Origin: Stutzerimonas xanthomarina
GTDB taxonomy: Bacteria > Pseudomonadota > Gammaproteobacteria > Pseudomonadales > Pseudomonadaceae
NCBI RefSeq assembly: GCF_003935375.1
Contig: NZ_RHQM01000015.1
Span: forward strand, 62,001 to 126,000
Reading direction: 5' to 3'
DNA length: 64,000 bases
In this document: positions 1,211 through 18,636 of the stretch, one piece after another
Layout: every line of letters starts with the position of its first letter
Numbering within the stretch: the stretch's first letter is position 1
Notes under the pieces: generated by a model
Seen by the model: the letters and a program-made list of their open reading frames with translations, nothing else
What the model was told of the DNA's origin: nothing
Database searches by the model: none
Position numbers and translations under genes: made by a program

Positions 1211-1221
1211 GGAATATCTCC

Positions 1222-1434
1222 TCAGCTCTGTTCAGGCGTGGCCAACGACAGGCAGTCGGCCTGCTGCACGTCGGCTGTCGTGCCTTCTTCGTTGGGGCTG
1301 AAGAAGGCGTGGAAGATGCGGATGAATCCATTGCCCGACGGTCCGTCAGGCGCGCCGGGTGCGGGAATGAGTTCGGTGTAGGAATAGCCATCGGCCAGAA
1401 TCAGCGACGTTCTGGATGTTTCTTCTGTGCTCAT
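1222..1434 (-). CDS. Small hypothetical protein in EPS operon (70 aa)
   Basis: A 70-residue ORF with ATG at 1434 and an AGGAG site 8 bases upstream, lying between a secreted small protein and a GT2 with gaps of 40 and 11 bases. No signal peptide, membrane segment or recognisable domain is visible. The middle is rich in Pro, Gly and Ala, followed by an aromatic stretch (FIRIFHAFF). I do not recognise a family. Retention in a tightly packed operon with a good ribosome site argues that it is translated. It could be a peptide linked to the adjacent secreted protein. Confidence 0.5.
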   Translation of the reverse strand: MSTEETSRTSLILADGYSYTELIPAPGAPDGPSGNGFIRIFHAFFSPNEEGTTADVQQADCLSLATPEQS

Positions 1435-1474
1435 GCCTGTGCTCCTGCATAACCCGGTGCGGTAACGGCCCGGA

Positions 1475-1804
1475 TCAGAATGAATAGCGCCTGCTGTCTG
1501 CCGGCGGACTCCAGAACGAACCGGACGCCGGTTCCGCGAATCGATACGGTTGAGGACCGGATGGGCTTTCCTGCTGCCCGCCGCCATTGGAGCCACAGCG
1601 TGGCGTGGCGTCGATTGACGAGTCGCTGTAGGCGATGACGCTCGCACTGCCGGCGCTGCTGCAGGCCGGCAACTGGCCGGACGGGTTGGTCGGTTCGGTG
1701 ATCAGCGTGTCGGCGTTCACCGCAGCGCTGGCTGGCTCGACCACTACAACGAGAGCGAACCCGAGCGCTCGGGTCACTCTCATCCACTTTTTTACTGTGT
1801 TCAT
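1475..1804 (-). CDS. Small exported hypothetical protein in EPS operon (109 aa)
   Basis: ATG at 1804 with AAGG immediately upstream. The N-terminus is a convincing Sec signal: basic MNTVKKWMR, a hydrophobic stretch to about residue 24, then an Ala-Ser-Ala-Ala cleavage-type sequence. The mature part of about 80 residues is low complexity (Ser, Pro, Gly), with two Cys residues that could form a disulfide and an aromatic, Arg-containing C-terminus. No family is recognised. It sits between a GT4 gene and a 70-residue ORF in the EPS operon, so a periplasmic or matrix role is possible, but this is inference. Confidence 0.6.
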   Translation of the reverse strand: MNTVKKWMRVTRALGFALVVVVEPASAAVNADTLITEPTNPSGQLPACSSAGSASVIAYSDSSIDATPRCGSNGGGQQESPSGPQPYRFAEPASGSFWSPPADSRRYSF

Positions 1805-1846
1805 CCTTGAAACCTCGTAAGTGAATGGGGTTGATGGGTAAACGCA

Positions 1847-3055: not shown

Positions 3056-3103
3056 GGCATGACATCCTTGATCGAGAAAGAGTGAGCAGCGAGGCGGTGA
3101 GCC

Positions 3104-4138: not shown

Positions 4139-4192
4139 GGTCTGCCTCGCTTGGTTGATGGAGTTGAGTGTCGGGACTGCATTCGTCGGGCA

Positions 4193-5299
4193 TCAGGGAC
4201 GGTCCGATGACCAGGCGATAAAGGACGGCGGGCTGGGTTTGCCCATTAGTGCCTTGTCGATCAGCTGCGACACGGTCTGCGCCGAGCGCTTCCAGGAGTA
4301 GCGCTCGACGTTGGCCAGGCCGAGGGTGCGCAGGTCGTCGCGCAGTCGCGCGTCCTGCAGCACGTGGCGCATGCAGCGGGCAATGTCCTCGATGTTCAGG
4401 GGCTCGAAATAGAGCACGCTCTCGCCGAGCACTTCCGGTATCGATGCGGCCCGCGCGGCGATCACCGGACACCCGCAGGCCTGGGCCTCCAGCGGCGGAA
4501 TGCCGAAGCCTTCGTAGAGCGAAGGGAACACGAAGGCGGTGGCGCCCTGGTATTCGCGCACCAGCTGATCGTCGTTCAGCCGGCCGAGAATGCGTACGCG
4601 TGGATTGCCATCGATGCTGGAGGTGGAGCCGGAGAAGACCGAGTGCGAGTCGCCGACGATGTGCAGTTCCACGTCATCGAAGCCTTCCAGGCTGAGGAAG
4701 GCCGCGACCATCCGCGCGAAGTTCTTGTGCGCGTTCGGGGAAGACACCGCCAGCACGTATGGCCTGGCATTGCCGCTGCGGTCCGCACCACTCGGCGGAT
4801 GGAACTTGGCCGCCACCGCATTGGGGACGACGCAGATCTTCTCGCTCGGGTAGCCGTAGTAGCGGGCGATTTCCTTGCGTGAGAAGTCGCTGACGGTGAT
4901 CAGTGCCTTGATGCGCTTGAGCAGCAGCGGCGTGATGCCCTTGTAGACGCTGCGGAAGGTGCGCGAATAGCTTTCCGGATGGCGCACATAGGTGATGTCG
5001 TGATGGGTGGCGATCTGGTTGCGGTAGATCAGCGGTGCCGTGTTGCACAGTGATACCAGCGGCGGATAGCCATGGCGCGCCAGCCAGAGAGGCAGGTCCA
5101 GCTGTTCCCACAGATGCCCGTGGTTGCGGCCGATGCGCCGCACCTGCAGGCGCTCGGCGCTGGCGTGCATGCGGATATCGTCCGGTGCGACGAATGTCAG
5201 GTCCTTGCGCATGGCGGCAAGTTCCAGGCAGACCTGTTCGGCAAAACGTTGCACACCGCGGGTTTCCTGAGTCAGGAAACGGGCGTTGATGGCGATCAT
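4193..5299 (-). CDS. Family 4 glycosyltransferase
   Basis: A 368-residue GT-B glycosyltransferase. It starts MIAINARFLTQETRGVQRFAEQV, with the Arg-Gly-Val-Gln-Arg loop typical of WbpY/MtfB-like mannosyl- or rhamnosyltransferases. The C-terminal donor site reads FVFPSLYEGFGIPPLEAQACGCPVIA, carrying the E-x7-E pair. ATG at 5299 follows a strong AAGGAGAG site. A 159-base spacer separates it from the GH39 gene upstream, the largest gap between protein genes in this operon, with no other gene seen in it. It is one of three GT4 enzymes assembling the repeat unit; donor and linkage are not predictable. Confidence 0.9.
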   Translation of the reverse strand: MIAINARFLTQETRGVQRFAEQVCLELAAMRKDLTFVAPDDIRMHASAERLQVRRIGRNHGHLWEQLDLPLWLARHGYPPLVSLCNTAPLIYRNQIATHHDITYVRHPESYSRTFRSVYKGITPLLLKRIKALITVSDFSRKEIARYYGYPSEKICVVPNAVAAKFHPPSGADRSGNARPYVLAVSSPNAHKNFARMVAAFLSLEGFDDVELHIVGDSHSVFSGSTSSIDGNPRVRILGRLNDDQLVREYQGATAFVFPSLYEGFGIPPLEAQACGCPVIAARAASIPEVLGESVLYFEPLNIEDIARCMRHVLQDARLRDDLRTLGLANVERYSWKRSAQTVSQLIDKALMGKPSPPSFIAWSSDRP

Positions 5300-5458
5300 G
5301 TAGGGCTCTCCTTGCGGGGAAGGTGTGCGCTGCCAGGTGGCGGCTGGCGAAGCGATGCGTCGTGCTTGGCGGTCAATGTGGGTTGGCCCGCGCGTGCTGG
5401 TCCGGTTGCGTTTCGCCTGGGTGGCCGGTCGTGCGGTCAGTGCATGTTGCGACAGGGG

Positions 5459-6772
5459 TCAACCGTCGTTCTGCACCGCGCGCAGGCTGATGATTTTCGG
5501 GAATCCATCGAGCTCCACCTCGGTGCTGCAGGCCTGGCCTTTGCCCGGACACTTCCACTCGGTACTGGTGACCACACGGCCGTGCTGGGGCTGGGCGGTA
5601 TCGATCAGCGCCACCTGACCCGCCTGGCCTTCGGCGCTCTGCAGCTCCACGGTTCGCGGCTTGCCGGTGCTCCAGGCCACCATCAGTTCATCGTCTCCGC
5701 GGGCGAATCGCAGCATCACCACGTCACCCGGAGTTTTCTCTTCGCGGCTGAGGAAGCTGTACTGGCTGACGATCGGGCTGATGGAGGCGAGCACCGAATA
5801 GGCCGGCTTGAGGGTGAAGTCCTGTCGTACCAGGCCGAAGTTGTGTTCGCGTTCGGTCTTGTCGGTGCCATCGTTGCGGAAGTCGTACCACCACATGCCC
5901 TTGATGCTCGGCAGTGTCTTGGCCAGAAAGAAGGCGCGGGCGAGGTAGGCCCCCTGCAGGCTTTCATCGATGCCGCATGCGCCCTGGTGGGCAGGCCAGG
6001 CCATTTCCGTCAGGTAGAGCGGTACCGGGCGTCCGGCGGCGCGGGTCAGGTCCTTGTCGACCTCGCTCATCCATTCGATCCAGGCCTCTGGGGTGTTGCG
6101 CCGCCAGCCGCGGCAGTGCACGTAGGGGTGCAACGACAGGCCGTCGACCGATTGCATCAGGCCGTTCTCCAGCAGGCGCAGGGCGAAACCGGAGTCGATG
6201 CCCTGGCTGGTCACGGCGCCGGCGAGCACCTTGGCGTTGGGCGCGCGCTGCCGGATGATCCCGGACGCATCGGCGATCAGCCGCGCGTAATCCTGGGTGA
6301 ATTCCGGGTCGCGCGGGTCCTCGACGTCCCATTCGTTCCATATCTCGTAATACGCCACCTTGCCTTTCAGCTCTTCGGTGATGAACTCGACATAGCGATT
6401 GAATGCCGCCCTGACCGGCTCGCTGCGGGGTTTCTCGCCGCCGCCGTAGTGCGAATTGCCGTAGCCGAGGATGAACTGGGTGCTCAGCCCGTGCTTGGCG
6501 GTGGTCTTCAGGTAACGTTGCCAGGAGGGTTCGATCTTCAGTTGCCCGGGCCGACGCTCGACATAGGCCCAGTGGGCGTCGGTGCGTACGGAGGTGATGC
6601 CGGCGTCGCGCATCATGGCGTAGGCGCGGCCGCTGGGGTCGCCCTTGTGCAGTTCGTGGGCACAGACGCCGACCACGAAAGGCTCCTCGGTGGTCTGGGC
6701 CGGGGCAAGCGGAGCAAGGCCAAGCAAGCCGCCCAGCAGCAGGGCGTTGAGCGGGGTAGAGCGCTTCGTCAT
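5459..6772 (-). CDS. PslG-like glycoside hydrolase, GH39 family
   Basis: A protein of about 437 residues with an N-terminal signal peptide or anchor (LNALLLGGLLGLAPLAPAQ) followed by a TIM-barrel hydrolase. The acid/base sits in IWNEWD (Glu about 147) and the likely nucleophile in YLTEMAWP (Glu about 256). This is the arrangement of P. aeruginosa PslG, of nearly the same length, an endo-hydrolase encoded inside the Psl operon. It would act in the periplasm on this cluster's own polymer, trimming misassembled chains or releasing product. ATG at 6772 is preferred over 6781 because it has GGATGATCCAC upstream. The rest of the cluster is not Psl-like in order, so a different substrate is likely. 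Confidence 0.85.
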   Translation of the reverse strand: MTKRSTPLNALLLGGLLGLAPLAPAQTTEEPFVVGVCAHELHKGDPSGRAYAMMRDAGITSVRTDAHWAYVERRPGQLKIEPSWQRYLKTTAKHGLSTQFILGYGNSHYGGGEKPRSEPVRAAFNRYVEFITEELKGKVAYYEIWNEWDVEDPRDPEFTQDYARLIADASGIIRQRAPNAKVLAGAVTSQGIDSGFALRLLENGLMQSVDGLSLHPYVHCRGWRRNTPEAWIEWMSEVDKDLTRAAGRPVPLYLTEMAWPAHQGACGIDESLQGAYLARAFFLAKTLPSIKGMWWYDFRNDGTDKTEREHNFGLVRQDFTLKPAYSVLASISPIVSQYSFLSREEKTPGDVVMLRFARGDDELMVAWSTGKPRTVELQSAEGQAGQVALIDTAQPQHGRVVTSTEWKCPGKGQACSTEVELDGFPKIISLRAVQNDG

Positions 6773-6796
6773 GTGGATCATCCGTGAAGGTAGGTC

Positions 6797-8095
6797 TCAG
6801 GTCAGGTGCTGCAACTCGGGCAGCCGTTGCGCCGCCAGGTTGTTGCTCGGGGCGCGGGCCGGGGTCAGCACGTGGGAGATCGCCAGGCCCAGGAACAGCG
6901 TGGCGATGGACACCTCCAGTACATCCGTGGCCCAGGCCACCAGGCAGATGCAGAAAACGATCGGCAGCAACGCGCTGCGCAGTCGCAGGCCCCGTTCATG
7001 CAGGCGCAGCATGAGCGGAAAGGTCAGCAGGTAGAGGAGCACACCGAACACGCCGAGCATGCCCCACAGGTACAGCGCGGTATTGTCGGCGACGCTCAGC
7101 AGCTCGAGGCCCGGTACGGGATAGACCTGTCCTGCGCTGCCCACCGCACCGAATCCCGCGCCCCACCAGCCCCATCCCTCGCGGGTGATGACCCCGATGA
7201 AGTTCGGCCAGCTGTTGATCAGACGGTCGGCGAATGAGGCCAGCAGCGAGCCGTTGTTCGCGGCGTTGGGGTCCAGGCTGAGCACCAGGCTAAACATCGG
7301 CAGCATCAGGCCGACCAGCACCGCGACGAGAAACGCCGTGGCGCTGGCGAAGCGGTAGGCCGTGACCAGCAGCATCAGCAACGTCAGCAGGTAGGCCGCC
7401 GCAGTGGATTTGTTGGTAGTCAGCACGATACCGATCAGTGCGGCGACATAGAGCGCCAGGCGTAGCAAGCGCGGGCGGATGAAGGCGGCAATGAACAGGC
7501 TGTACACCGCAATCATCACCGACAGCGCGGTGGACATGCGGGCGAAGCCGCCGATGCGGTCGATGTCGTCGAACGCCCACGAGCGGTTGGCGCTTAGTTC
7601 CACCTCGCCGACCATGTAGCTGTAGCCCTTCCACGGCACGCTGGTGAGCATGTCCAGCGCGATGCCGACGAAGCAGGCGATCAGGCAGAAGCCGATGATT
7701 CGGCGCAGCAGCCCGAGCCGCAACTCCACATGGCGGCCGCAGATCAGACCGAACAACAGCGGAATGTAGATGAACAGGCTGAAACCGATGTTGGCCAGCT
7801 CCGCGCCATGCATCAGTGCCAGCTGGGCGGAAGTGACAAGCCCCAGCAGCACCAGCCAGAACGCCGGCCAGCCGCGGTAGCGCAGCAGCTCCAGGCCCAG
7901 CGCGATCAGGCAGGCAATCTTGGGCAGGTACAGCAGCCAGGAAATCCCGGCCATGTCGAAGTAGTAGCGCAGTGCGCCGGAAAAGGTTTCAGTCAGCAGC
8001 AGCGAGGCGACGACCAGCGTCAACAATGTCGGCTTGTCGAAGGCCAACGGATTCGATTCGCGTCGCCGCGGGGTAATCAGCAGGCTCTGGTTCAT
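6797..8095 (-). CDS. O-antigen polymerase/ligase-like membrane protein (Wzy candidate)
   Basis: A 432-residue integral membrane protein with about eleven hydrophobic helices and a large periplasmic loop in the C-terminal half (around WGWWGAGFGAVGSAGQ), the usual topology of Wzy/WaaL proteins. It is the only polymerase candidate in the cluster and fits alongside Wzx and Wzc. It would join lipid-linked repeat units in the periplasm. ATG at 8095 (MNQSLLITPRRR) is the first Met before the first helix; the ribosome site is weak. The first 107 bases overlap the end of the upstream GT4 gene in another frame, which suggests translational coupling or a lost stop codon upstream. Confidence 0.8.
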   Translation of the reverse strand: MNQSLLITPRRRESNPLAFDKPTLLTLVVASLLLTETFSGALRYYFDMAGISWLLYLPKIACLIALGLELLRYRGWPAFWLVLLGLVTSAQLALMHGAELANIGFSLFIYIPLLFGLICGRHVELRLGLLRRIIGFCLIACFVGIALDMLTSVPWKGYSYMVGEVELSANRSWAFDDIDRIGGFARMSTALSVMIAVYSLFIAAFIRPRLLRLALYVAALIGIVLTTNKSTAAAYLLTLLMLLVTAYRFASATAFLVAVLVGLMLPMFSLVLSLDPNAANNGSLLASFADRLINSWPNFIGVITREGWGWWGAGFGAVGSAGQVYPVPGLELLSVADNTALYLWGMLGVFGVLLYLLTFPLMLRLHERGLRLRSALLPIVFCICLVAWATDVLEVSIATLFLGLAISHVLTPARAPSNNLAAQRLPELQHLT

Positions 8096-9299
8096 GGTGG
8101 ATTCTCGTTCCCTGAAGTGTTTCGCGCAGGATGGTCTGGTACTGATCCAGCATGCGTTCCATATCCAGCAGCGGCAGCACGCTGGCCCGTGCCTGGCTGG
8201 CGAGCCGTTGCCGCAGTGCGCCGTCGATGTAGAGCCAGAGCATGGCGATGCCGAGTGAGTCGGGATCATCGGGCGAGCAGAGCAGGCCGTTGCATTCGTC
8301 GCGGATGATCTCCGGCAGCCCGCCCATGTTGCTGGCGATCACCGGCAGGTTGTTGGCGCAGCCTTCGACGGCCACCAGGCCGAACGGCTCGCCCCACAGC
8401 GACGGCACCACCAGCACGTCGATGCTCTGCATGAACTCGTCGCTGTCGCAGTAGCCGCGAAAGCTGACCTTTTTCGGATCGGCCATGGCCTTCAGCTTGG
8501 CTTCGTAGTCCAGCTTGCCGCGCCCGGCGATATCCAGCCGCGCATTGATGTCCAGCCGCTGGAACTGCTCGATCAGCCAGCCGACGCCCTTGTTCTCCGA
8601 CAGCGTGCCGATATAGCCGAAGCGCAGTGGATGGTTACTGCGCTGCCTGGGCTTGCTGCCCTGACCGGGGTTGGCCGGCGTGCAGTTGTGCACCACATGC
8701 TGGCGCGCGCCACTGAAATAGCCCTGTGCGGTGATGCGCTTGAGCACGAAGCGGCTGACGCCGATCGCCGTGGCCACTTGCGCTGAGGCGCCGGCGTGGC
8801 GGAGACGGAACACCGAACACATACCGCACTGGCGCTGGCAGCTCTTGCCGTGGTTGAACATGGTGTCCTTCGGGCAGAGCAGGTAGAGGTCATGCAGCAC
8901 CTGGACGATGGGCAGGCCGGCCGCGCTGATTTCGTCCCAGGCGGAAATCGACCAGCCGGTGAGGTTGTTGCAGACCACGATGTCCGGCCGTTCCCGCGCG
9001 ATCACGTCACGCACATGGCAGCGCATGTCGGCGTTGTAGCGGTCGCGGTAGTGCCAGCCGAGCCGCGCGAGGCGACTGGGGCGCTGCTGGGTGTAGTGCC
9101 AGTAGCTGTTCGCCAGATTGGCGCGGTAGACCCGCACCCCGTCCTGAACCTGCATGTCCAGCCCGGCATCCGGGCCGGTCGCCAGCACCGCTACCTCGCA
9201 TCCGCGCCGCCGCAGCCCTTCGGCCAGGTGCCGGAGGATGACTTCCGCGCCGCCGCCGACGTGCGGGGTATAGAACGCATTGAGGAATAGGATCTTCAT
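7989..9299 (-). CDS. Family 4 glycosyltransferase with C-terminal extension
   Basis: A 436-residue GT-B enzyme starting MKILFLNAFYTPHVGGGAEVILRHLAEGL, a textbook GT4 N-terminus. The donor site is VVPSLWGEPFGLVAVEGCANNLPVIAS. A Cys-rich insert, LLCPKDTMFNHGKSCQRQCGMC, occurs near the middle and is seen in some GT4 branches. The GT domain ends near the ILRETL segment. The last 40 or so residues run into the next gene in a different frame and look non-homologous. Earlier ATGs exist, but 9299 matches the family start. It belongs to the EPS operon downstream of rfaH, with a 44-base gap. Confidence 0.88.
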   Translation of the reverse strand: MKILFLNAFYTPHVGGGAEVILRHLAEGLRRRGCEVAVLATGPDAGLDMQVQDGVRVYRANLANSYWHYTQQRPSRLARLGWHYRDRYNADMRCHVRDVIARERPDIVVCNNLTGWSISAWDEISAAGLPIVQVLHDLYLLCPKDTMFNHGKSCQRQCGMCSVFRLRHAGASAQVATAIGVSRFVLKRITAQGYFSGARQHVVHNCTPANPGQGSKPRQRSNHPLRFGYIGTLSENKGVGWLIEQFQRLDINARLDIAGRGKLDYEAKLKAMADPKKVSFRGYCDSDEFMQSIDVLVVPSLWGEPFGLVAVEGCANNLPVIASNMGGLPEIIRDECNGLLCSPDDPDSLGIAMLWLYIDGALRQRLASQARASVLPLLDMERMLDQYQTILRETLQGTRIHHEPEPADYPAATRIESVGLRQADIVDAGRRLAAAD

Positions 9300-9343
9300 C
9301 GCTTGGCTCGCTGATTGAACCTGACAGGCTGCTCGCACCTGGG

Positions 9344-9853
9344 TCAGGGGTGGCACTGGAGATAGCGGGTGGGCACCCGGACCTTCTGTTCACGCTGCAA
9401 CAGGTTGAGCAGGATGACCGAGCGCTCCTCGCCGTCGCTGCTGACGAAGATCGCTTCGATGTCGCTGAAGCTGCCCCCGCTGACCTGGACCCGCTCGCCA
9501 GGTGAGAACGGCGCCGCCGCCATGGTCTGCGGCTGGGCGAGGCGCTGTCGCAACTGTTCGATCAGCTCGTCGCGTACCGGCGTCGGCTGGCCGCCGAAGC
9601 TAACTACGCGGCTGACGCCCCGAGTGGAGCGAATCGGGTACCAGTTGTCGTGAATGCAATCCAGGCGGATGAACAGGTAGCCGGGGAATAGCGCCTCGCC
9701 GGTCTTGGTCCCCTGTGAGCCGCGCAAGGGCGCAGGCGCCTTGAGCGGGCGGTAGCACTCGAAGTGCTGGCGCAACAGGTGCTCCTCGGCGCGGGCCTCC
9801 TGGCGAGGCTTGGTCTGGATCAGGTACCAGCGTGCGGTATTGCTCGATGTCAT
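9344..9853 (-). CDS. rfaH: RfaH-type transcription antiterminator (NusG family)
   Basis: A 169-residue NusG paralogue. The N-terminal NGN domain starts at RWYLIQTKPRQEARAEEHL and includes LFPGYLFIRLD. The C-terminal KOW segment starts near PFSPGERVQVSGGSFSDIEAIF. Proteins of this type ride on RNA polymerase after recruitment at an ops element and suppress termination across long surface-polysaccharide operons. Location inside the operon is typical of specialised paralogues such as LoaP or UpxY. ATG at 9853 has AAGGAC 5-7 bases upstream. An ops-core sequence lies in the leader at 17627-17635, which strongly suggests control of this same operon, including its own expression. Confidence 0.9.
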   Translation of the reverse strand: MTSSNTARWYLIQTKPRQEARAEEHLLRQHFECYRPLKAPAPLRGSQGTKTGEALFPGYLFIRLDCIHDNWYPIRSTRGVSRVVSFGGQPTPVRDELIEQLRQRLAQPQTMAAAPFSPGERVQVSGGSFSDIEAIFVSSDGEERSVILLNLLQREQKVRVPTRYLQCHP

Positions 9854-9906
9854 GGGATGTCCTTCCCTGATTGGCCTGCCCCAATCCGATGGCAGGCGAA
9901 ATGTCT

Positions 9907-10650
9907 TCACGCCAGCGTCAGCGTTGCCCTTTTTTCCTGTCCCTCGACCACGCTGAAGCGCTGCAGCAGTTCCTTGACCTCTTCGCGGCTGTTGAACATC
10001 AGCACGTCGATGATCGACAGCGACGGAACGAACGCATGCTTGAGCTGCGGGTAGCCCACCTCATCCATGCGCAGGAAGCGCAGCAGCAGGCCGTCGGCGC
10101 GGAAGCGGGCCAGGCAGTACAACTCCATGCCGCCGATGGGATTGAGGTAGAGCTCGCCATCCATGCGATGGGTGATCTGGATGACGCGGTCCTGCATGTC
10201 CATCTTCGCCGGCAAGCCGAGGCTGGAGCCGCGATAGATCGGCGTGCGGATGCCCAGGTAGGCGCAGAGGCAGCGCAGGGAGTTTTCGGTGAACAGCGCC
10301 AGATTGCGTTCCGGGCACTGCAGGATGCCGCGAATCAGCGGCAGCACCGCGTCGCGCTGGGGTGCCTTGGCGTAGCAGCGCTCGAGGGTCAGCATCAGGG
10401 CCGCGGCTTCCTTGTCGAAGTCGTCGCAGAGCCAGCGCTCGTTGATGCGCTCGGTCTGATGGCCCTTCTTCAGCGGAAAGCTGATCAGCTTGGGCTGGCC
10501 GTTGACGAGGATCCGGTTGCGGTTCATCCATGAGCCCCTGACGAATTGCAGGTCGTCGCCCAGCACGAACACATCGCTGAGCGCGATCAACTGAAAGTAG
10601 CCCAGGTACGGAAATAGGTAGGGCTGCATCATCGAGACGGTTCTGAGCAT
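9907..10650 (-). CDS. WbqC-family protein
   Basis: A 247-residue protein starting MLRTVSMMQPYLFPYLGYFQLI, the hallmark N-terminus of the WbqC family (Pfam WbqC). It continues with the conserved blocks DVFVLGDDLQFVRGSWMNRN and ISFPLKKG. Members are common in O-antigen and capsule clusters that make amino-dideoxy sugars and have been suggested to attach acyl or aminoacyl groups; the chemistry is not settled. ATG at 10650 follows an ideal AAGGAGG. It lies 22 bases after wzc and before rfaH. Together with the VioA-like aminotransferase it supports a modified amino sugar in the polymer. Confidence 0.88.
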   Translation of the reverse strand: MLRTVSMMQPYLFPYLGYFQLIALSDVFVLGDDLQFVRGSWMNRNRILVNGQPKLISFPLKKGHQTERINERWLCDDFDKEAAALMLTLERCYAKAPQRDAVLPLIRGILQCPERNLALFTENSLRCLCAYLGIRTPIYRGSSLGLPAKMDMQDRVIQITHRMDGELYLNPIGGMELYCLARFRADGLLLRFLRMDEVGYPQLKHAFVPSLSIIDVLMFNSREEVKELLQRFSVVEGQEKRATLTLA

Positions 10651-10672
10651 GGTGCACCTCCTTGTCTGGCGA

Positions 10673-12883
10673 TCAGGCTTGCTGGGTGTAGGTGTAATAG
10701 CCGTAGGCGCCGCTGTCGTACGGCGAGGTCGAGGCCTTGCGCTTCACGGCATTGAGGATCACGCCCTTGAGCAGCACGCCGTTCTGCGCCAGCCGCCGCT
10801 TGGAGGCGTCGATCTGCGAGCTGGTGCTGAGGCCGAAGCGGGCCACCAGCAGGTTGGTCCCCGACTGCTGGGCGACCAATACCGCATCGGTGACGGCCAG
10901 CACCGGCGGCGTGTCGATGATGATGAAGTCGTAGAGCTTTTCCGCTTCGCGCAGCAGGCGGGAGAAGTTGTCGTGCATCAGCAGCTCGGACGGATTCGGC
11001 GCGGAGAACCCGGCGGAGATGAAGTGCAGGTTCTTCTGCTCGGTGCGGTTGCTGATCTCGGCCAGGCTCAGGCCGCTGGCCAGCGCATCCGACAGCCCGT
11101 GACGCGGCGCCATGCCAAACAGCGTGTGCAGGTAGCCGCGGCGCATGTCGGCATCGATCAGCAGCACGCGCTGGCCGGTCTGCGCGATGACCGCGGCGAG
11201 GTTGCTGGAGACGAACGACTTGCCCACCGACGGCGTCGGGCTGGTGATCATCAGCACCTTGTTGCGCGCCTCGAGCATGGCGAACTTGAGGCTGGTACGC
11301 AGGCTGCGCAGCGATTCAACGGCCAGATCGGTCGGTTCGGTGAGGCTGAGCAATCGGGTCTTGCCGTCGCGGCTCTTGCGGCTGCGATTGAGCTGATCCT
11401 GAGAGGCGCTGTAGGGCAGGCCGGCATAGACCGGTACGCCAAGCTTCTCGATCACGTCCGGGCTTTCCACACCGCGGTAGAAGGCCTGGCGCAGCAGGAT
11501 GACTGCCGCCGAGACGAGCAGGCCGACGAAGATCGCGATGGCCACCACCAGCGGTTTGACCGGTTTCGACGGCTTCTCGATCATCGAGTAGGCGTTGTCG
11601 ATGATGCGCACGTTGCCGATGGTGCCGGCGCGCAGGATGTCCTGCTCCTGCGCCTGGTTCATCAGCAGCGTGTAGGTCTGGGTGGTGACTTCCATGTCAC
11701 GCTGGAGGCGCAGCAACTCCTGCTGCGTCATGGGAAGGGCGTCGACCTTCTTCAGTAGCTGCGCTTTCTGAGCCTGCAGTTCGTTCATCTGCGTGATCAG
11801 GGTGCGATAGGTCGGGTGCTCGCGGGTGTAGAGACGGTCGTATTCGACGCGCTTGAGCGACAGTTCAGAGATCTGCGTTTCCAGGGCGACGATTTGGTCG
11901 AGCACGCCCTTGGTTTCGATGCTGATATCCACCGACTTGGAGCTGGTCTGGTAGGCATTCAGCGCCGCCTCGGCCTTTTCCAGTTCCTTGCGCACCTGCG
12001 GCAGCTGCGAGCGCAAAAAGTCCAGACGCTGGGCTGCTTCCGCCGAGCTTCGCTGGATGTTCTGGCTGACGTACAGCCGACTGATCTCGTCCAGCACCTG
12101 ATTGGCCAGTTGCGGGTCCGGGTCTTCCAGTGACATGTAGATGATCCCCGAATCCTTGCCGGCCTCACCGACCTTCAGGCGATTCTGGTAGTCCAGCGCG
12201 GTGGTCTGCGGACGGTTGCGGACCAGCGCGAACTCGGTGCCCGGACGCGCGTCCAGCTGGGCGATCTGCACCTTGAAACCCTGGTTCTCCACCGCCTGAT
12301 TGACCTGGCCACGCAGGATCGGCTCGTGCTCGTCGTCATGCAGGGTGTAGGCCCCGGCGGTGCCGGCGACCAGTGTCAGCTCCACGCCCAGATAGGCTTC
12401 GGGCACATCGAGCTGGAACACTTCGAGCTTTTCCCCGCCCCAGGCGTAGCTGCTCAGGCCGAACAGCGGGGCGGCCAGCGCGCCATCGGTCGCCGGGTCG
12501 TGCCGGCGCGCCATGAAGGCGCCGAACACCGGGAAATGACGGGGCTGGGCGACGATGTAGAGCTTGAGCTCCTCGACAGCCTTGCCGAGCACCGCGCGGG
12601 ATTTCAGCAGGGAGATCTCGGTAACCGCCTGGGACACCGAATCCGGCCGGGCCGATACTTCCGGTACGCCGGTGATGGCGGCTTTTTTCGGTTCGATCTG
12701 GATCATCGCCGTCGCCTGGTAGATCGGCGTGGCGATCAGGGCGTAGAGCACGCCCAGCGCAGCGAAGAAGCCGGTGATGGTGATGATCAGCGCCTTGTGG
12801 TCATAGGCGGTGCGCATTATCCCGGCAAGGTCGATGCGGTTGTCCGCGTCATATTCCAGCGAAGAGCGGGTCAAGGCAGTCAT
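10673..12883 (-). CDS. wzc: Wzc-type polysaccharide co-polymerase / tyrosine autokinase
   Basis: A 736-residue inner-membrane protein. It has a first transmembrane segment at about residues 33-52, a periplasmic Wzz domain with coiled coils to about residue 425, and a second membrane segment. A cytoplasmic BY-kinase domain follows: Walker A in SPTPSVGKS (Lys555), Walker A' in LLIDAD (Asp577/579) and Walker B in IIIDTPP (Asp657). The C-terminus has a cluster of five Tyr (722, 727, 729, 730, 732) for autophosphorylation. It sets chain length and couples polymerisation to export; the partner Wza and phosphatase Wzb are not in the window. ATG at 12883 has AGGAAGGA upstream. Confidence 0.93.
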   Translation of the reverse strand: MTALTRSSLEYDADNRIDLAGIMRTAYDHKALIITITGFFAALGVLYALIATPIYQATAMIQIEPKKAAITGVPEVSARPDSVSQAVTEISLLKSRAVLGKAVEELKLYIVAQPRHFPVFGAFMARRHDPATDGALAAPLFGLSSYAWGGEKLEVFQLDVPEAYLGVELTLVAGTAGAYTLHDDEHEPILRGQVNQAVENQGFKVQIAQLDARPGTEFALVRNRPQTTALDYQNRLKVGEAGKDSGIIYMSLEDPDPQLANQVLDEISRLYVSQNIQRSSAEAAQRLDFLRSQLPQVRKELEKAEAALNAYQTSSKSVDISIETKGVLDQIVALETQISELSLKRVEYDRLYTREHPTYRTLITQMNELQAQKAQLLKKVDALPMTQQELLRLQRDMEVTTQTYTLLMNQAQEQDILRAGTIGNVRIIDNAYSMIEKPSKPVKPLVVAIAIFVGLLVSAAVILLRQAFYRGVESPDVIEKLGVPVYAGLPYSASQDQLNRSRKSRDGKTRLLSLTEPTDLAVESLRSLRTSLKFAMLEARNKVLMITSPTPSVGKSFVSSNLAAVIAQTGQRVLLIDADMRRGYLHTLFGMAPRHGLSDALASGLSLAEISNRTEQKNLHFISAGFSAPNPSELLMHDNFSRLLREAEKLYDFIIIDTPPVLAVTDAVLVAQQSGTNLLVARFGLSTSSQIDASKRRLAQNGVLLKGVILNAVKRKASTSPYDSGAYGYYTYTQQA

Positions 12884-12931
12884 TGGGAATCCTTCCTCAT
12901 GGTGCTATGTGCAAAGAAGCGGGGTAGGCGG

Positions 12932-13864
12932 TCAGCTCCTGGCCAGCCGTGGGCTCAACCGACGCAGCAGGTTGAGGCTGATGTTCTGGGCGATGGTCGA
13001 GAGCGCCTGGATCTTGCTGAACGGCGAGATCAGCGAGAGGCACTCGCCGAACACCTGGATCAGGAAGTACTCGTAGAGCGCGTTGTTGCCGATGCGGCTG
13101 TAGTAGCGCGCCAGCGAGTAGTGGGCGTGCATGGCCATCTGGATGCGTTGCCGGCTCGGCTGCATGGAGAAGATGCCGCCCTCGTGCACGCGGTAGGCGG
13201 CCGGGCTGATGGTTTCCAGGAACTTGCCTTTGCCGTAGGCGCCGAGCAGCGACCACCAGCAGATATCCAGCACTTTTACGCCTAGCAGTTCCGGCGGCAG
13301 CTCCTGCACCAGATTGCGAAAGCACACGGTGAGCGTCGAGAGCGGGCGACCCTGCATCAGCTCCTGCGCGGTGGCGTCCTTGCGCAGCTTTCCGGTCAGT
13401 TGCGGGCTCTGGATGATGCCCTTGCTGTTGAACATGAAGGCATCGTGATAGGTGATCACGTAGTCACGATGCTGCTCGAGGAAGTCCACCTGCTGCTGCA
13501 GTTTGGTCGGGTCGGTCCAGTAGTCGTCGCCTTCGCAGTAGGCGATGTACTTGCCCCCGGCGCGGGCGAACAGGCGCGTGCTGAACGGCTCGCCGAGGCT
13601 GAACTGGTTCTGCGTCTGATAGATCGGCTTGATGATGCGGGGGTAGCGCGCCGCGTAGTCGGCGATGATCGCGGCGGTGGTGTCGGTCGAGGCGTCGTCG
13701 TGGACGATCACCTCGAAAGGGAAATCCGTTTCCTGCTGGAGGAAGCTCTCCAGCGCCTTCCTGATAAAGGATGCGTGGTTGTAGGCCAGGCAGACGACGC
13801 TCAGCAGCGGCTCGGTCTTGCCGCCCCAGCGTTCAATCAAGGCTTGCTCGCTCTTCAATTCCAT
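12932..13864 (-). CDS. Family 2 glycosyltransferase
   Basis: A 310-residue GT-A enzyme with the core LLSVVCLAYNHASFIRKALESFL, a VHDDAST motif and a later YCEGDDYW carrying the catalytic-type Asp-Asp. The last third is basic and hydrophobic and probably associates with the membrane. ATG at 13864 lies inside the 3' end of the flippase gene (32-base overlap), so translation is probably coupled. It would transfer one sugar of the repeat unit on the cytoplasmic face; the donor is unknown. Confidence 0.88.
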   Translation of the reverse strand: MELKSEQALIERWGGKTEPLLSVVCLAYNHASFIRKALESFLQQETDFPFEVIVHDDASTDTTAAIIADYAARYPRIIKPIYQTQNQFSLGEPFSTRLFARAGGKYIAYCEGDDYWTDPTKLQQQVDFLEQHRDYVITYHDAFMFNSKGIIQSPQLTGKLRKDATAQELMQGRPLSTLTVCFRNLVQELPPELLGVKVLDICWWSLLGAYGKGKFLETISPAAYRVHEGGIFSMQPSRQRIQMAMHAHYSLARYYSRIGNNALYEYFLIQVFGECLSLISPFSKIQALSTIAQNISLNLLRRLSPRLARS

Positions 13865-15395
13865 TTTTGGACGCTCGTTTGGTGATGAGTAGGTGAAGCT
13901 TGAGTCGCAGTGATTTCGAGGTGGCCGCGACCAGCGCCAGGCAAATGAATCCGCTTACGGCCAGCGCCATCAGCATGTCGAAGCGGTTGTCGCTGGCGAT
14001 CAGCAGGAACAGCGGCTCGCCCAGCGCCACGCCGATCAGGGTCGCGGCGGTGATTCGCAAGATGTCACGCGTCCAGATGCCCTGCAGGCCGGGCGAGAAA
14101 CGCCGATGCACCACCGGAGGCCAGATCACGAAGGTCGCCAGGCGCAGGAAGAACCAGGCAAGCGCCGCGCCATAGGCGCCGTGGGTGAGCGCTGCGTAGA
14201 TCACGATCGGCACGCTGATGGCGGTGGAGACCACGCTATACCAGATATGCAGGCGCAGCCGGCCATAGGCGTACTGCAGGTAGAACTGAAAGGCACCGAC
14301 CGCCATCAGCGCGCTGCCCGGCACGTACCAGAACAGCATGCGCTCGCTCCACTGCGCCGCGCCCGCGTCGCCGGTCCAGGCGAGGATCAGGGCATGCCCG
14401 TGCCAGGCGATCACCGCGGCCATCGGAAACAGCACGCTGCAGACGAAGCGGGTGGCGTTCAGGTACAGCCGCTCCATTTCGGCGATCCGGCCCTCGGCCA
14501 CGAGCATGGTCATGCGCGGCAACAGCGTCTGCACCAGGGGGTTGGTCAGGGTCATGATGCCGGTGGTGATCAGCGCCACCAGCGAGAAGTAGCCGTACTC
14601 CTTGAGCAGCAGCACCTTAGAAAGCAGCACCTTGTCCAGCTGGGTCAGCACGATCCACAGCAGCGAGGTGAAGAACATGCCGCCGGCGAAGGGCAGCACC
14701 GGCCGCACCACGCGCCAGTCGATGCCACTGAGCAGCCTCGGGCTGGACAGCTGTATGTAGGCCTTGCTGGCGAAGGCAAGCGTTTCCACCAGCGCCACGG
14801 CGGTTTGAAACAGGAAGAAGTCCAGCGGTTCCTGCGAGACATAGGCGACCAGAAACAGGCCGCCGAGGTAGCGCAAGGTGGCGATCAGGGTGTTTGTTGC
14901 GTTCAGCCAGCCGTGCAGTTCGACGCCCTGCAGCCCGCTCTTGTACAGGGTCGCGTAGAGCCTCAGCGCGACCATCAGGCCCATGAGGCTGATGCACTGC
15001 ATGATGGTGCCGGTGCTCAGTTCCCGCGCCTGCAGCCAGGCCCCGGCGATCCAGCCGCTGCCCAGGTAGATCGCCACGCAGGTCGCCAGGGCGATCGGCA
15101 GCAGCAGCAGCTCGAACGAACGCAGCAGCCGCCCTGCAGGACCAGCCGCGGTGCTGAGATCGCCCTGGCCGCGGTAGTGTGCCACCTGCCGCACCAGTGC
15201 CGGCGACATCCCGGCATCGAGCAGCTGCAGCCAGGCCTGAAGTACCGCGAAGAAGCCAATCAGCCCGTAGGCTTCGGCGCCCAGATGCTTCAGATAGAAC
15301 GGCAGGATCAGAATGCCGATCAGCAGGGCGTAGGCCTGGCCGAGGTAGTTCAGGCTGGTGTTGCGGATCACCGATAACCGCTTGGGATCTGACAT
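13833..15395 (-). CDS. wzx: Wzx-type oligosaccharide flippase
   Basis: A 520-residue polytopic protein with about 14 predicted helices. It starts RNTSLNYLGQAYALLIGILILPFYLKHLGAEAYGLIGFFA, typical of the polysaccharide-transport branch of the MOP superfamily. Its role is to translocate the lipid-linked repeat unit to the periplasm for Wzy. ATG at 15395 comes 3 bases after the aminotransferase stop, with GGAGG about 12 bases upstream, and its end overlaps the following GT2. The length is somewhat above the usual 420-500 residues because of a basic C-terminal tail. Confidence 0.88.
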   Translation of the reverse strand: MSDPKRLSVIRNTSLNYLGQAYALLIGILILPFYLKHLGAEAYGLIGFFAVLQAWLQLLDAGMSPALVRQVAHYRGQGDLSTAAGPAGRLLRSFELLLLPIALATCVAIYLGSGWIAGAWLQARELSTGTIMQCISLMGLMVALRLYATLYKSGLQGVELHGWLNATNTLIATLRYLGGLFLVAYVSQEPLDFFLFQTAVALVETLAFASKAYIQLSSPRLLSGIDWRVVRPVLPFAGGMFFTSLLWIVLTQLDKVLLSKVLLLKEYGYFSLVALITTGIMTLTNPLVQTLLPRMTMLVAEGRIAEMERLYLNATRFVCSVLFPMAAVIAWHGHALILAWTGDAGAAQWSERMLFWYVPGSALMAVGAFQFYLQYAYGRLRLHIWYSVVSTAISVPIVIYAALTHGAYGAALAWFFLRLATFVIWPPVVHRRFSPGLQGIWTRDILRITAATLIGVALGEPLFLLIASDNRFDMLMALAVSGFICLALVAATSKSLRLKLHLLITKRASKNGIEERASLD

Positions 15396-15398
15396 GAG

Positions 15399-16601
15399 TT
15401 ACTGCTGGCCTCCAGTGGTCAGGGGCATGCGCGGGTAATCCGAACCTGGCAGGCGCTCCACGCCGCAGAACAGCCCGAACGCATCGGCAAAGGGCTGGAA
15501 CAGGGTCCGGTTCGACTGTTCGCTGTGGATCGCTTCCTGGATCAGCGTCTGCATGACCTTTTCCTGCACCTTGCGCGGCAGCCCGGGGTAGATCGGCAGG
15601 CACAGCACCTTGCGGCTCAGGGCCCGCGAGCGTGGCTGCGGCACTTGCGGCTGCAGATGATCGAGCGTGTCCAGCGACGGGTAGAAGTAGCGGCGGGGGT
15701 TGATGCCGTTCTCGTTCAGTTGCGAGCGGCAGCGCAGGAGCTGGCTTTCGTCGGCGAGGGCAACGGGAAAGTAGCTGTAGTTGCACTGGGATTCCGGCTG
15801 CGCCCGTTGCAGATCGAAGTGTTCGCCAAGGCGGCGCTCGTAGCGATGGCCGATCTCTGCCCGGCACTCGAATATCAGCTCGATATCGTCGAGCACGCAC
15901 ATGCCCATCGCGGCGGAGAACTCGTTGAGCTTGGCGTTGATGCCGATGCCTTCGATCTGGTCGGTATCGACGATGCCGAAGTTGCAGAGCAGGCGTATGC
16001 GTTCGGCCAGGGCGTCATCGTTGGTGACGATGGCGCCGCCCTCGATGGTGTGGAACAGCTTGGTTGCATGGAAACTCAGCGTGCTGATATCGCCCCAGTC
16101 GTAGACCGAGCGACCCTTGTGACGAACGCCAAACGCATGGGCGCCGTCGTAGATGACTTTCAGGTTGTTCTTGCGCGCGATCTGCTCGATGCGTTCCACA
16201 TCGCAGGGGTTGCCGAACACATGCGTGGCGACGATGGCGGAGGTGTCGGGCTGGATATTTCGCTCGATCTGCTCCGGGTCCAGATTCCAGGTTGCGGGGT
16301 CGATGTCGACGAAGAGCGGCTTGATGCCTTCCCACTGCAGCGAGCTGGTGGTGGCAACGAAGCTGAAGGGCGTGGTGATGGCGCTGCCCGTCAGCCCCAG
16401 CGCACGATACGCGACCTGCAGTGCGATGGTGCCATTGTTGGTGAGGATGATGTTCCTCACCCCGAGGTAGTCCTTGAGTCGTTGCTCCAGTGCGGTTACC
16501 AATGGTCCGTTGTTGGTGAGCCAGCCGGTGTTGTAGATCCTGTCTATGTAAGCCTTGAACTTGTTCTTGCTGCCCAGGTATGACTTGGTCACGTTGATCA
16601 T
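15399..16601 (-). CDS. VioA/DegT-family PLP-dependent sugar aminotransferase
   Basis: A 400-residue DegT/DnrJ/EryC1/StrS aminotransferase. Features are the N-terminus MINVTKSYLGS with WLTNNGPLV, the PLP-phosphate contacts near NNGTIAL, a TTPFSFVATTSS block, the Asp of VIYDGAHAFG, and the Schiff-base Lys in LSFHATKLFHT. Overall it most resembles VioA-type enzymes that turn dTDP-4-keto-6-deoxyglucose into dTDP-4-amino-4,6-dideoxyglucose (viosamine). ATG at 16601 follows AAGGAAATCACC. Paired with WbqC it implies an amino-dideoxy sugar. The dTDP-glucose genes rmlA and rmlB are not in the window. Confidence 0.88.
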   Translation of the reverse strand: MINVTKSYLGSKNKFKAYIDRIYNTGWLTNNGPLVTALEQRLKDYLGVRNIILTNNGTIALQVAYRALGLTGSAITTPFSFVATTSSLQWEGIKPLFVDIDPATWNLDPEQIERNIQPDTSAIVATHVFGNPCDVERIEQIARKNNLKVIYDGAHAFGVRHKGRSVYDWGDISTLSFHATKLFHTIEGGAIVTNDDALAERIRLLCNFGIVDTDQIEGIGINAKLNEFSAAMGMCVLDDIELIFECRAEIGHRYERRLGEHFDLQRAQPESQCNYSYFPVALADESQLLRCRSQLNENGINPRRYFYPSLDTLDHLQPQVPQPRSRALSRKVLCLPIYPGLPRKVQEKVMQTLIQEAIHSEQSNRTLFQPFADAFGLFCGVERLPGSDYPRMPLTTGGQQ

Positions 16602-16628
16602 GGTGATTTCCTTATCGAAGCTCAGCCG

Positions 16629-16649
16629 CCCCCGAATGGCATTCGGGGG
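16629..16649 (-). other. Perfect hairpin between first two EPS genes
   Basis: Two 9-base arms, CCCCCGAAT and ATTCGGGGG, flank a 3-base loop. There is no T-run on either side, so it is not a standard intrinsic terminator. In an RfaH-dependent operon it may be a pause, an RNA-processing site or a 3'-end stabiliser separating the dioxygenase gene from the rest. Confidence 0.6.
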
Positions 16650-16676
16650 TTATCGCTGGGTGCTACAGATGCGCGC

Positions 16677-17450
16677 TCAGACAGGTTGATGCGCGCCGAT
16701 CGCGCTAGCCCGCCGTGCCCTGCGTTGGTTGTGTCTGAGGATCATTCGGGTCATCAGGCTGCCGGCGTGAGGATCGCCGTAGTGGAAGATCGCGGTAGCG
16801 CGCAGCTGCGCCGGATCGCAGGGTTCGTTGGCATGCAGGGATCGGTAGCCCCAGAACAGGTAGAGATTGCCGGGTACCAGCTGCAGGCGCTGAGGCTTGA
16901 GCAGTCCGAGGCCTATCGCGCGGCTAATCAGCTTGCGACTCAACTTGTTCTGCAGCAGTGCCTTCTCCAGAACGTTGACCAGCACGTACTTGCGAAGCTT
17001 GCGCAGGTTGGGAAACACCAGCAGATCGCCGCGCTGGTCGCCTTCCTGCGGGATTTCCACAGGTAGCAATGCCGTTACCAGAGAAGCGTCGTAGTGGAAG
17101 CAGTTCGACTCCTTGCGGCCTGTCTGCCCCTGCACGCATCGCATCACCAGGTAGATGCGCTTGCTTGGCGCCTCTTCGCCGGCGCCAAGCTGGTACACGT
17201 CCTCCAACAGTGACTGGAATTCCGGTGCGCTGCTCAATGTGGCAAGCAGCGAGCCCGCAACCTGTTCACCGTCGTGATGAGCGAAATATTCCCCGTGATG
17301 CTGTCGAGCCTGCTCGTAAACTTGCTCGCGCAGTTGAGTTAGTTGCAGATTGTTCAAGTAGCCGGGTATGCAGGCGTAGCCATTCTGATTGATATCCCGC
17401 GCAATCGATGCCTTGTCCTGATCTTCCGTTCCATAAAAGATTGTTGACAC
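16677..17450 (-). CDS. Putative Fe(II)/2-oxoglutarate dioxygenase (phytanoyl-CoA dioxygenase-like)
   Basis: A 257-residue protein and the first gene of the EPS operon. The start has the look of the phytanoyl-CoA dioxygenase superfamily (INQNGYACIPGYLNNLQLTQLRE). A facial triad can be proposed: His119 and Asp121 in CFHYDAS, then His206 in YRSLHANEP. Arg217 in LRATAIFHY is placed to bind 2-oxoglutarate. Such enzymes hydroxylate small molecules, lipids or sugars. The substrate is unknown; an acyl chain or sugar of this polymer is plausible from context. Start GTG at 17450 with GGGAGAA upstream. The C-terminus is strongly basic. Confidence 0.7.
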   Translation of the reverse strand: MSTIFYGTEDQDKASIARDINQNGYACIPGYLNNLQLTQLREQVYEQARQHHGEYFAHHDGEQVAGSLLATLSSAPEFQSLLEDVYQLGAGEEAPSKRIYLVMRCVQGQTGRKESNCFHYDASLVTALLPVEIPQEGDQRGDLLVFPNLRKLRKYVLVNVLEKALLQNKLSRKLISRAIGLGLLKPQRLQLVPGNLYLFWGYRSLHANEPCDPAQLRATAIFHYGDPHAGSLMTRMILRHNQRRARRASAIGAHQPV

Positions 17451-17546
17451 GGTAGTTCTCCCTGCACAAAGGCGAGGCGAAACGATTTGGTCGAGCCGCA
17501 GCTACTGCGCGCCGCTGCTGGTCGGCGTTCTGAGTGGAAATAAAGA

Positions 17547-17559
17547 ATTACGGCGTAAT
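17547..17559. promoter_or_regulatory. 13-base palindrome in EPS operon leader
   Basis: The arms ATTACG and CGTAAT around one central base form a palindrome about 100 bases before the GTG start of the first EPS gene. It could be a protein operator or part of leader RNA structure. No known regulator is assigned. Confidence 0.4.
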
Positions 17560-17626
17560 GCCTGGGTAGTAGGTTTTACCTGTGGCAAAAGTTAATACCG
17601 ATCTAGAATATTTTTTATTAGACAAA

Positions 17627-17635
17627 GCTACCGCC
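17627..17635 (-). promoter_or_regulatory. ops element core (RfaH recruitment site)
   Basis: The minus strand reads GGCGGTAGC followed by TTTGTC. This is an exact match to the conserved core of the ops/JUMPstart element that pauses RNA polymerase and recruits RfaH. It lies 177 bases upstream of the first gene of an EPS operon that itself encodes an RfaH homologue, correct in orientation and distance. A near match (TGCGGTAGC) occurs at 17735-17743. Confidence 0.7.
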
Positions 17636-18275
17636 ATCGACTTGTTTATATGTCGAGTTGAATAACTTATACGTAATTTCCCGTCATCTGCGATCGGCTA
17701 GCGTCCGCGTGCGGCTTTGAAAGAATCGGGCATGGCTACCGCACTCCGGGCACTCTGCGAGCCCCGATTCTCTCAATGCTTGTGGCAAACGAGCCCGCAT
17801 CGCTTTATTAAGAGCGATACTAATCAGGCAGGGGGTTTAACTCTTGCGCCGCAAAACTTGACCTGTCCAGTTGGTCTTAAACTGCTCTGCAACGTATTGC
17901 TCCCTGTTGCGACTAGATATCCGTCATAACGTGAACCAAGTCAAGCTAGGGAGCCAAAAAAAAGTTGCGGATGGAGGTCGCGAGGTGTTTAGGAGAGCCA
18001 ACTTATTGAGTTGAAAAGAATTTTGTTTTTGACGCAGGCTGGCCTAGGGCTATAATCAATGGTTATAGCGAATGCGGTAATTAGCTCTAAACTGAATAAA
18101 CCATCTGCTCCTTTGCTGGCCATAAATGACGTATGCATAAACAAAGGGAAAATTATTCCGACTATGCTGAGCAACTATTCCGATAAAGAGTTAATTCTAC
18201 GGACCTGTTGTTAGAAGACGCGGCTTACTGGTCGAAGAGGGCGTTGGTCTGTCCGTGACAAAAAAGACGCGCAAA

Positions 18276-18308
18276 CGAAAAAGGCCACTCGTCTGAGTGG
18301 CCTTTTCG
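18276..18308 (-). terminator. Rho-independent terminator of the downstream initiator tRNA gene
   Basis: Stem arms GGCCACTC and GAGTGGCC, extended by A/T pairs, with a 4-base loop. On the minus strand it is followed by a TTTTT run. It lies just 3' of the tRNA ending at 18314 and is nearly identical to the hairpin at 18524-18557. Confidence 0.85.
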
Positions 18309-18313
18309 TGATT

Positions 18314-18390
<77 letters not shown>

Positions 18391-18523
18391 TCTGTGGGGC
18401 GCATTCTACAGCCCGATTACTCGATGTCAATCAAAAGGAAGGAAAAAAGCGTATTTCATTCAAAAGGTTAGCGATTCATGCGAGGTCTGGTGCCAACACC
18501 AGCGCCTCAGAGTTTTGCGCGCA

Positions 18524-18559: not shown

Positions 18560-18636
<77 letters not shown>

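Follow-up and report, generated by a model that had tools for sequence, protein, structure and literature searches.

Does an exopolysaccharide (EPS) operon that encodes its own RfaH-type antiterminator also carry the ops element at which such a protein would be recruited, and if so, what kind of loop would result? This question is raised by a 64,000-nucleotide stretch of the Stutzerimonas xanthomarina contig NZ_RHQM01000015.1 (the window), whose minus strand carries about 17 co-directional EPS genes in a unit of about 18 kb, with rfaH as gene 7. Judged from sequence, a leader with two ops elements very probably loads the gene-7 RfaH and thereby aids completion of its own operon in a positive loop. 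The initial annotation of this DNA had placed the 9-mer GGCGGTAGC at 17627–17635 on the minus strand, ahead of gene 1. This was borne out, and we call the element ops2; 176 bases separate it from the GTG of gene 1 at 17450. A second ops-like element, ops1 (TGCGGTAGC), 108 bp upstream of ops2, had been overlooked. An ops core is therefore present in the leader as annotated, but the picture of a single element does not hold, since conserved leaders contain two. The features concerned are:

17735–17743, minus strand: ops1, TGCGGTAGC followed by CATGCC; a conserved island in the leader alignment and one of two matches to the pattern KGCGGTAGCNWTGYC in the genome
17627–17635, minus strand: ops2, GGCGGTAGC followed by TTTGTC
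17916–17944, minus strand: putative promoter, TTGACT-17 nt-GATATC; TTGAC is conserved upstream of ops1
9344–9853, minus strand: gene 7, rfaH, 169 amino acids; TIGR01955 with 186.2 bits, PF02357

Taken alone, the 9-mer is weak evidence. The window contains three matches to GGCGGTAGC, compared with 0.64 expected, and 3 of 100 shuffles reach three; the other copies lie at 9748–9756 on the plus strand, antisense inside rfaH, and at 45995, within an open frame of 315 amino acids. What lifts GGCGGTAGC above chance is its conservation across rfaH loci. The gene (rfaH1, as opposed to a second paralogue, rfaH2) is present in 47 of 56 genomes of the genus. All 45 Stutzerimonas loci with enough upstream sequence carry the ops pair, at a spacing of 75–121 bp; in the remaining two (L046, L075) the upstream sequence is too short, and the genome of L075 (G022) shows the pair on another contig. 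In an alignment of 43 leaders, two conserved islands stand within otherwise diverged sequence. The 9-mer of the initial annotation is conserved in these orthologous leaders, 42 of 45 having exact GGCGGTAGC at the same place and on the same strand and three (L069, L071, L073) a one-base variant. Exact GCGGTAGC was found at ops1 in 44 and at ops2 in 43 of the 45 loci, with both cores exact in 42; L068, L069 and L071 have one of the two cores off by a base. The eight core bases average 1.95–2.00 bits, compared with 0.12–0.41 bits at 20–40 nt upstream. This core information is partly built in, because the search pattern fixed most core bases; selection of the loci, however, relied on rfaH and made no use of ops. 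Single variants were tolerated by the pairing pattern, whose spacing limits (70–125 bp, 150 bp for Pseudomonas) and downstream-base filter were set after the first alignment had been seen. Information and hairpin tests used dereplicated sets (35 of the 45 Stutzerimonas and 29 of the 33 Pseudomonas loci). Named Stutzerimonas loci (L103–L124 and some later ones) largely repeat the G genomes; they were kept out of the pair counts and used for gene-presence counts.

The same arrangement was observed in Pseudomonas. Thirty-eight rfaH loci came from scanning named genomes of P. viridiflava, P. graminis, P. syringae and other species; 36 of them reach far enough upstream (L126 and L148 are too short). 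The pair is present in 33 of these, at a spacing of 76–147 bp, and the misses L142, L146 and L154 have one exact element each. With the exception of L151, all 33 pairs have GGCGGTAGC as both cores and GGCGGTAGCGTG, the E. coli sequence, as ops2. In all 78 loci that hold the pair, the elements lie on the sense strand and rfaH follows 5–9 kb behind them.

In E. coli ops, the substitutions G4C, G5A, A7T and G8C abolish RfaH recruitment (Zuber et al. 2018, PMC5995543). Every substitution except G2C weakens the RfaH effect, with G5A, T6A, G8C and T11G being the worst (PMC5995543). The loop bases G4–G8 are intact in both window elements and carry 1.8–2.0 bits across loci, most of them having been fixed by the search pattern. 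Validated E. coli RfaH targets also have TG at positions 11–12 in common (PMC5995543). In E. coli, this TG programmes the ops pause. Neither window element has TG at 11–12; CATG at ops1 and TTTG at ops2 place it at 12–13. This later register was found in 43 of 45 Stutzerimonas ops1, 34 of 45 ops2 and 24 of 33 Pseudomonas ops1 elements, and the E. coli register in 0, 4 and 9 of these, respectively, and in 32 of 33 Pseudomonas ops2 elements. For the bases downstream of the 9-mer, to which the initial annotation had drawn attention, the TG is in Stutzerimonas mostly found one base later than in E. coli. Two TG registers are found within one leader in Pseudomonas, ops1 being mostly of the 12–13 and ops2 of the 11–12 type.

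Gene 7 had been annotated as an RfaH-type NusG paralogue, and its TIGR01955 score, given above, exceeds the cut-off of 144.5 bits. With the UpxY model (NF033644) it scores 75.0 bits, below the cut-off of 100, and with the LoaP model (NF033641) 43.5 bits, below the cut-off of 125. The only NusG-domain genes found in the genome of the window are nusG and gene 7. Translation likely starts at the ATG at 9853, not at the GTG at 9910. Orthologues in named Stutzerimonas records are 94–98 % identical; two rfaH loci (G011, G049) have one stop flagged in the matched stretch. Contacts of E. coli RfaH to ops are made by K10, H20, R23 and R73 (PMC5995543). In E. coli numbering, the window protein has all of K10, Q13, R16, H20, R23, Q24, R73, E48, I93, F130 and L142. 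Among 47 Stutzerimonas RfaH1 proteins, K10 is kept in 44 (R in three), H20 in 28 (N in 19) and R23 and R73 in all 47, and the other listed residues are invariant. The autoinhibition and interface residues E48, I93, F130 and L142 are invariant in 85 RfaH1 proteins (47 from Stutzerimonas and 38 from Pseudomonas). An AlphaFold2 model from 29 sequences was too poor for use in the C-terminal domain (CTD), where the predicted local distance difference test score is mostly below 50. When the window protein was modelled with 85 of the 239 homologues listed (86 sequences in all, drawn from two related groups of paralogues), the CTD was predicted in a beta, active-like form with block means of 68–79. 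The best fold match of the model is the ops-recruited E. coli RfaH, 8phk. An autoinhibited form is thus not borne out by the prediction, and the kept residues and the AlphaFold2 model disagree.

What can be read from the DNA are the two elements with their conservation, the residues of RfaH and the order of the genes; on these the following course of events would rest. RNA polymerase would start near 17909, reach ops1 after about 165 nt and ops2 after about 275 nt, and pause there. The GCGGTAG exposed in the non-template strand at either element would load RfaH from gene 7. Once loaded, RfaH would exclude NusG and blunt Rho-dependent termination over the 18-kb unit, as described for E. coli RfaH. 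As this unit includes rfaH itself, 7.8 kb downstream of ops2, read-through to rfaH would give more RfaH and hence more read-through, and such a positive loop would raise operon completion once some RfaH exists. At low RfaH levels, the second site would most likely give a further opportunity for loading.

Several observations weigh against this proposal. The leaders are shared by descent among related species, and 45 loci do not amount to 45 independent events. In the window, ops1 lacks G1 and T11, which are replaced by T and A, respectively, and ops2 reads TTTG where E. coli reads GTG; such differences in register and bases weaken the claim, made here from sequence, that both sites would work alike. 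The ops-contact residue H20 is replaced by N in 19 of 47 Stutzerimonas RfaHs, whose ops cores stay largely unchanged, and the larger AlphaFold2 model has its CTD in the active-like form. The second hexamer of the putative promoter, GATATC, is a poor match, and a consensus promoter scan, which listed no minus-strand promoter in 9000–18400, did not list the putative leader promoter either, so that an internal promoter could have escaped it too. Intrinsic-terminator-like sites on both strands of the same interval are at chance level (5, compared with 6.1 expected), so that any gain would have to come from Rho, pausing or translation.

The missing G1 and T11 of the window's ops1 could also mean that only ops2 loads RfaH and that ops1 is decayed, acts purely in pausing or is a site for another factor. 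A difference between the two elements is seen in their RNA context as well. At ops2 of the window, a hairpin ends 1 nt upstream of the element:

17637–17656, minus strand: hairpin TCGAC/GTCGA

Stems of at least five pairs that end 0–4 nt upstream were found at ops2 in 19 of 35 Stutzerimonas loci (200 shuffles: mean 3.7, maximum 11). At Stutzerimonas ops1 they were found in 9 of 35, which is not above chance, as shuffles reach 12. In Pseudomonas, such stems precede ops1 in 25 of 29 and ops2 in 29 of 29 loci, compared with maxima of 10 and 9 in 200 shuffles. Against the hairpin, folding z-scores of the upstream stretch are modest (means of –0.24 to –1.43). Covariation in the Pseudomonas ops2 stem is no better than in shuffles, 394 of 500 reaching it. 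For the Pseudomonas ops1 stem, 6 of 500 shuffles reach the observed covariation, in a test whose alignment (A2, 30 of 33 pairs) omits L151 and, for their differing register, L147 and L153, which favours the stem; a further alignment, A3, holds 32 of the 33 pairs. However, ops1 is conserved like ops2 in Stutzerimonas, where exact GCGGTAGC differs by a single locus between them, and in Pseudomonas ops1 is full GGCGGTAGC in 32 of 33 pairs. Decay is disfavoured because it would not have kept ops1 in this way. We therefore consider loading at ops2 only to be rather doubtful.

In the window's own clade, ops1 is in addition enclosed by a long stem:

17717–17776, minus strand: 14-bp RNA stem in which 17763–17776 pairs with 17717–17730

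This stem has a fold z-score of –3.2, and 0 of 200 shuffles fold as well. A paired change, A-U to U-A, was seen by eye in L054. As a general feature the stem was rejected, since only 4 of 35 dereplicated loci have a z-score below –2; it is specific to the clade.

The gene order and the structure prediction together suggest another reading, in which RfaH acts independently of ops and is loaded in cis during its synthesis, as proposed for resident NusG paralogues whose CTD is permanently active. In that case, the elements of the leader would be strong pauses only. Consistent with this, rfaH lies inside its own operon and AlphaFold2 draws a beta CTD. Of beta-predicted RfaHs, 7 of 10 adjoin an operon, compared with 17 of 212 metamorphic ones (PMC13015549). 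On the other hand, the ops elements and the ops-contacting residues are conserved together, the four autoinhibition and interface residues do not vary in the 85 proteins, and the sequences behind the beta prediction, 86 in number, all belong to two related groups of paralogues. Loading in cis thus appears unlikely to us.

The feedback architecture pointed out in the initial annotation is supported by gene order, because rfaH lies inside the operon and downstream of ops. Bistable EPS production, which had been derived from it, is not: no setting with three states appeared in a steady-state scan of 125 settings with one or two independent loading sites, so that two stable states were never obtained. 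A cooperative model, run as a control, gave three states in 23 of 125. In the one-site model, 7 of 125 settings showed no sign change on the grid. A single steady state is expected in these models because loading depends on RfaH in a concave manner, whether there is one site or either of two can be used; bistability would require a further nonlinearity or noise. The position of rfaH behind both elements, in all 78 loci that hold the pair (45 from Stutzerimonas, 33 from Pseudomonas), speaks for a loop that could switch, but given the modelling a bistable switch seems very unlikely. Finally, the possibility that the elements are chance 9-mers kept by common descent only, for which one could cite further copies of GGCGGTAGC in the window and genome, was rejected as hardly credible, since the leader sequence 20–40 nt away has diverged and the cores have not, and both copies persist in Stutzerimonas and Pseudomonas.

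The preferred reading, ops-dependent loading of RfaH in its own leader, raises the question whether further targets exist. The strict pattern KGCGGTAGCNWTGYC, which was derived from the same sites and catches both elements in 23 of 45 known leaders, gave two same-strand matches at most 125 bp apart in 24 of the 47 genomes that have rfaH1 and in none of the 9 that lack it. In the genome of the window its two matches are the ops pair only, compared with one for the reversed control; a claim of a single target covers this genome only. Isolated single matches occur about once per genome and also in the genomes without rfaH1 (9 in 9), so that single matches mean little. The pattern GGCGGTAGCNT has 14 sites in the genome of the window (reversed control, 36). 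Thirteen of them are covered by an open frame of 80 or more amino acids on either strand, the leader site being the exception; such frames are common in a G+C-rich genome and are weak evidence of coding. No other leader-type RfaH target was recognisable among these 14 sites. Two broader searches were discarded. Used as a general search within the taxonomic class, the tandem pattern matched 4 of 369 genomes, of which G286 and G091 look like low-complexity repeats. Within the family, a 16-base pattern matched 166 of 298 genomes, mostly with other sequences among the matches listed and often with higher reversed controls, and was dropped from the counts; it sees only 30 of 45 known leaders, its 6 matches in the 9 genomes without rfaH1 were judged not leader-like from their letters only, and it was replaced by KGCGGTAGCNWTGYC. 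Perhaps, although we would put this at somewhat less than even, the protein is a private RfaH that is programmed by ops and dedicated to its own operon, standing between cis-only NusG paralogues and the trans-acting enterobacterial RfaH, with a duplicated hairpin-ops module, kept in tandem in both Stutzerimonas and Pseudomonas, whose second site tunes the ignition threshold of a self-amplifying operon.

The operon consists of 13 larger open reading frames (ORFs) down to 1847, two small frames at about 1220–1804, a GT2 gene at 137–1210 and an acyltransferase gene that crosses the window edge. The initial count of about 17 co-directional genes is right if the two small frames are included. Besides rfaH, the genes are:

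16677–17450, minus strand: gene 1, 257 amino acids, GTG start, without Pfam match
15399–16601, minus strand: gene 2, DegT-type aminotransferase (PF01041, 299 bits)
13833–15395, minus strand: gene 3, Wzx-like flippase (PF01943, 48 bits)
12932–13864, minus strand: gene 4, GT2 glycosyltransferase (PF00535)
10673–12883, minus strand: gene 5, Wzc-like tyrosine kinase, 736 amino acids (WZC_N, GNVR, Wzz)
9907–10650, minus strand: gene 6, WbqC family, 247 amino acids (PF08889, 212 bits)
137–9356, minus strand: genes 8–16, glycosyltransferases, Wzy-like and others, from ORFs and domain matches, with a provisional start for gene 8; the two small frames are counted here
running past the window edge, minus strand: gene 17, acyltransferase, from ORFs and domain matches

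The operon is followed by a MiaB-type tRNA modification gene. In 47 of the 56 genus genomes, rfaH is accompanied by a close wbqC orthologue; both are missing in the other nine, one of which has a weak wbqC match of 30 %. Among named loci, gene 1 is present in 23 of the 24 from Stutzerimonas and 32 of the 36 from Pseudomonas. The Pseudomonas loci also share most of the operon genes that lie to either side of rfaH; the exceptions are Wzy, present in 1 of 36, and gene 12, present in 22.

Upstream of ops1, TTGAC occurs within 330 nt in every leader compared (45 from Stutzerimonas, 33 from Pseudomonas). The Stutzerimonas copy with a GATA-like hexamer behind it lies 155–204 nt upstream of ops1. Most listed Pseudomonas loci have a promoter-like TTGACA-GATATATA and, about 80 nt further upstream, a TTGAC-AATCAA box (in L133, about 213 and 293 nt upstream of ops1); this box is possibly an activator site. 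Two tRNA-Met (CAT) genes lie upstream of the EPS operon, at 18314–18390 and 18560–18636 on the minus strand. Near this tRNA pair, the relatives L058 (5170–5235, minus strand) and L067 (5143–5208, minus strand) have a ROSE_3 thermosensor RNA above the Rfam cut-off.

The genus has a second paralogue, RfaH2, which is 45–57 % identical and was examined at 14 loci (L089–L102). Behind the rfaH2 stop, at 90–345 nt, GGCGGTAGC is found in 13 of the 14 loci, and in 11 of these 13 a CAGG-type inverted repeat precedes it by eye. In L102 the core behind rfaH2 is GGCGGGAGC, and the gene next after rfaH2 reads like a polysaccharide exporter. Position 48 is Q in 11 of the 14 RfaH2 proteins. From these sequences, the genus has one RfaH gene upstream of a probable ops and one downstream, a natural contrast of feed-forward and feedback.

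How does this locus compare with known systems? With E. coli RfaH and ops it shares the protein family, the ops-contact residues and a leader whose non-template strand carries the ops core GGCGGTAGC. Unlike in E. coli, RfaH is encoded here within its presumed target, as gene 7, two elements stand in the leader, and the Stutzerimonas TG mostly comes one base later. Membership in the JUMPstart family (RF01707) was rejected, as no match was found in the window at 16500–18500 or 17600–17800, nor in L058 and L067; the gathering score is 35. Elsewhere, P. viridiflava ops2 scores 19.4 bits and an RfaH2 leader 23.5 bits, both below that cut-off. The helix of the Rfam model closes directly upstream of GGGCGGUAGCGUG, as do the hairpins upstream of most elements here, whereas the window falls outside the family.

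An antiterminator gene inside a surface-polysaccharide or metabolite operon is also found for UpxY of Bacteroides, TaA of Myxococcus and the RfaHs of Shewanella CL7 in EPS operons (PMC7593976). The 2020 survey that describes them calls the recruitment mode of some operon-resident paralogues unknown (PMC7593976). The conserved ops pair, in contrast, gives a likely recruitment mode for the resident protein described here. The gene upxY is the first of its operon, whereas rfaH is the seventh here. A 2026 preprint ties operon residence mainly to beta-predicted, permanently active RfaH that is independent of ops (PMC13015549). The present case, in which the ops pair and the interface residues of a resident RfaH are both conserved, would allow this link to be tested directly.

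The EPS273 locus of P. stutzeri 273 has the same run of DegT aminotransferase, Wzx, GT2, a 736-amino-acid kinase, a 247-amino-acid WbqC and RfaH (EPS273-M; PMC5532660), the two loci being equated by gene order and lengths, not by sequence. EPS273-M has been proposed as a direct activator of its own locus (PMC5532660). In contrast to the present analysis, the main text of that paper is without the words ops or leader, and tandem sites and feedback are absent from its passages (PMC5532660). A natural tandem ops leader was not found described in the passages of the open-licence literature that was searched, and the one tandem-ops case there is an artificial template (PMC2871177). With its two sites, the tandem could serve as a natural system in which to measure the dependence of operon completion on RfaH dose, and the case cautions against inferring bistability from gene order alone. 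RfaH and ops, NusG paralogues resident in operons and the EPS273 locus were known before; what looks new is the conserved tandem of ops elements that goes with a resident RfaH.

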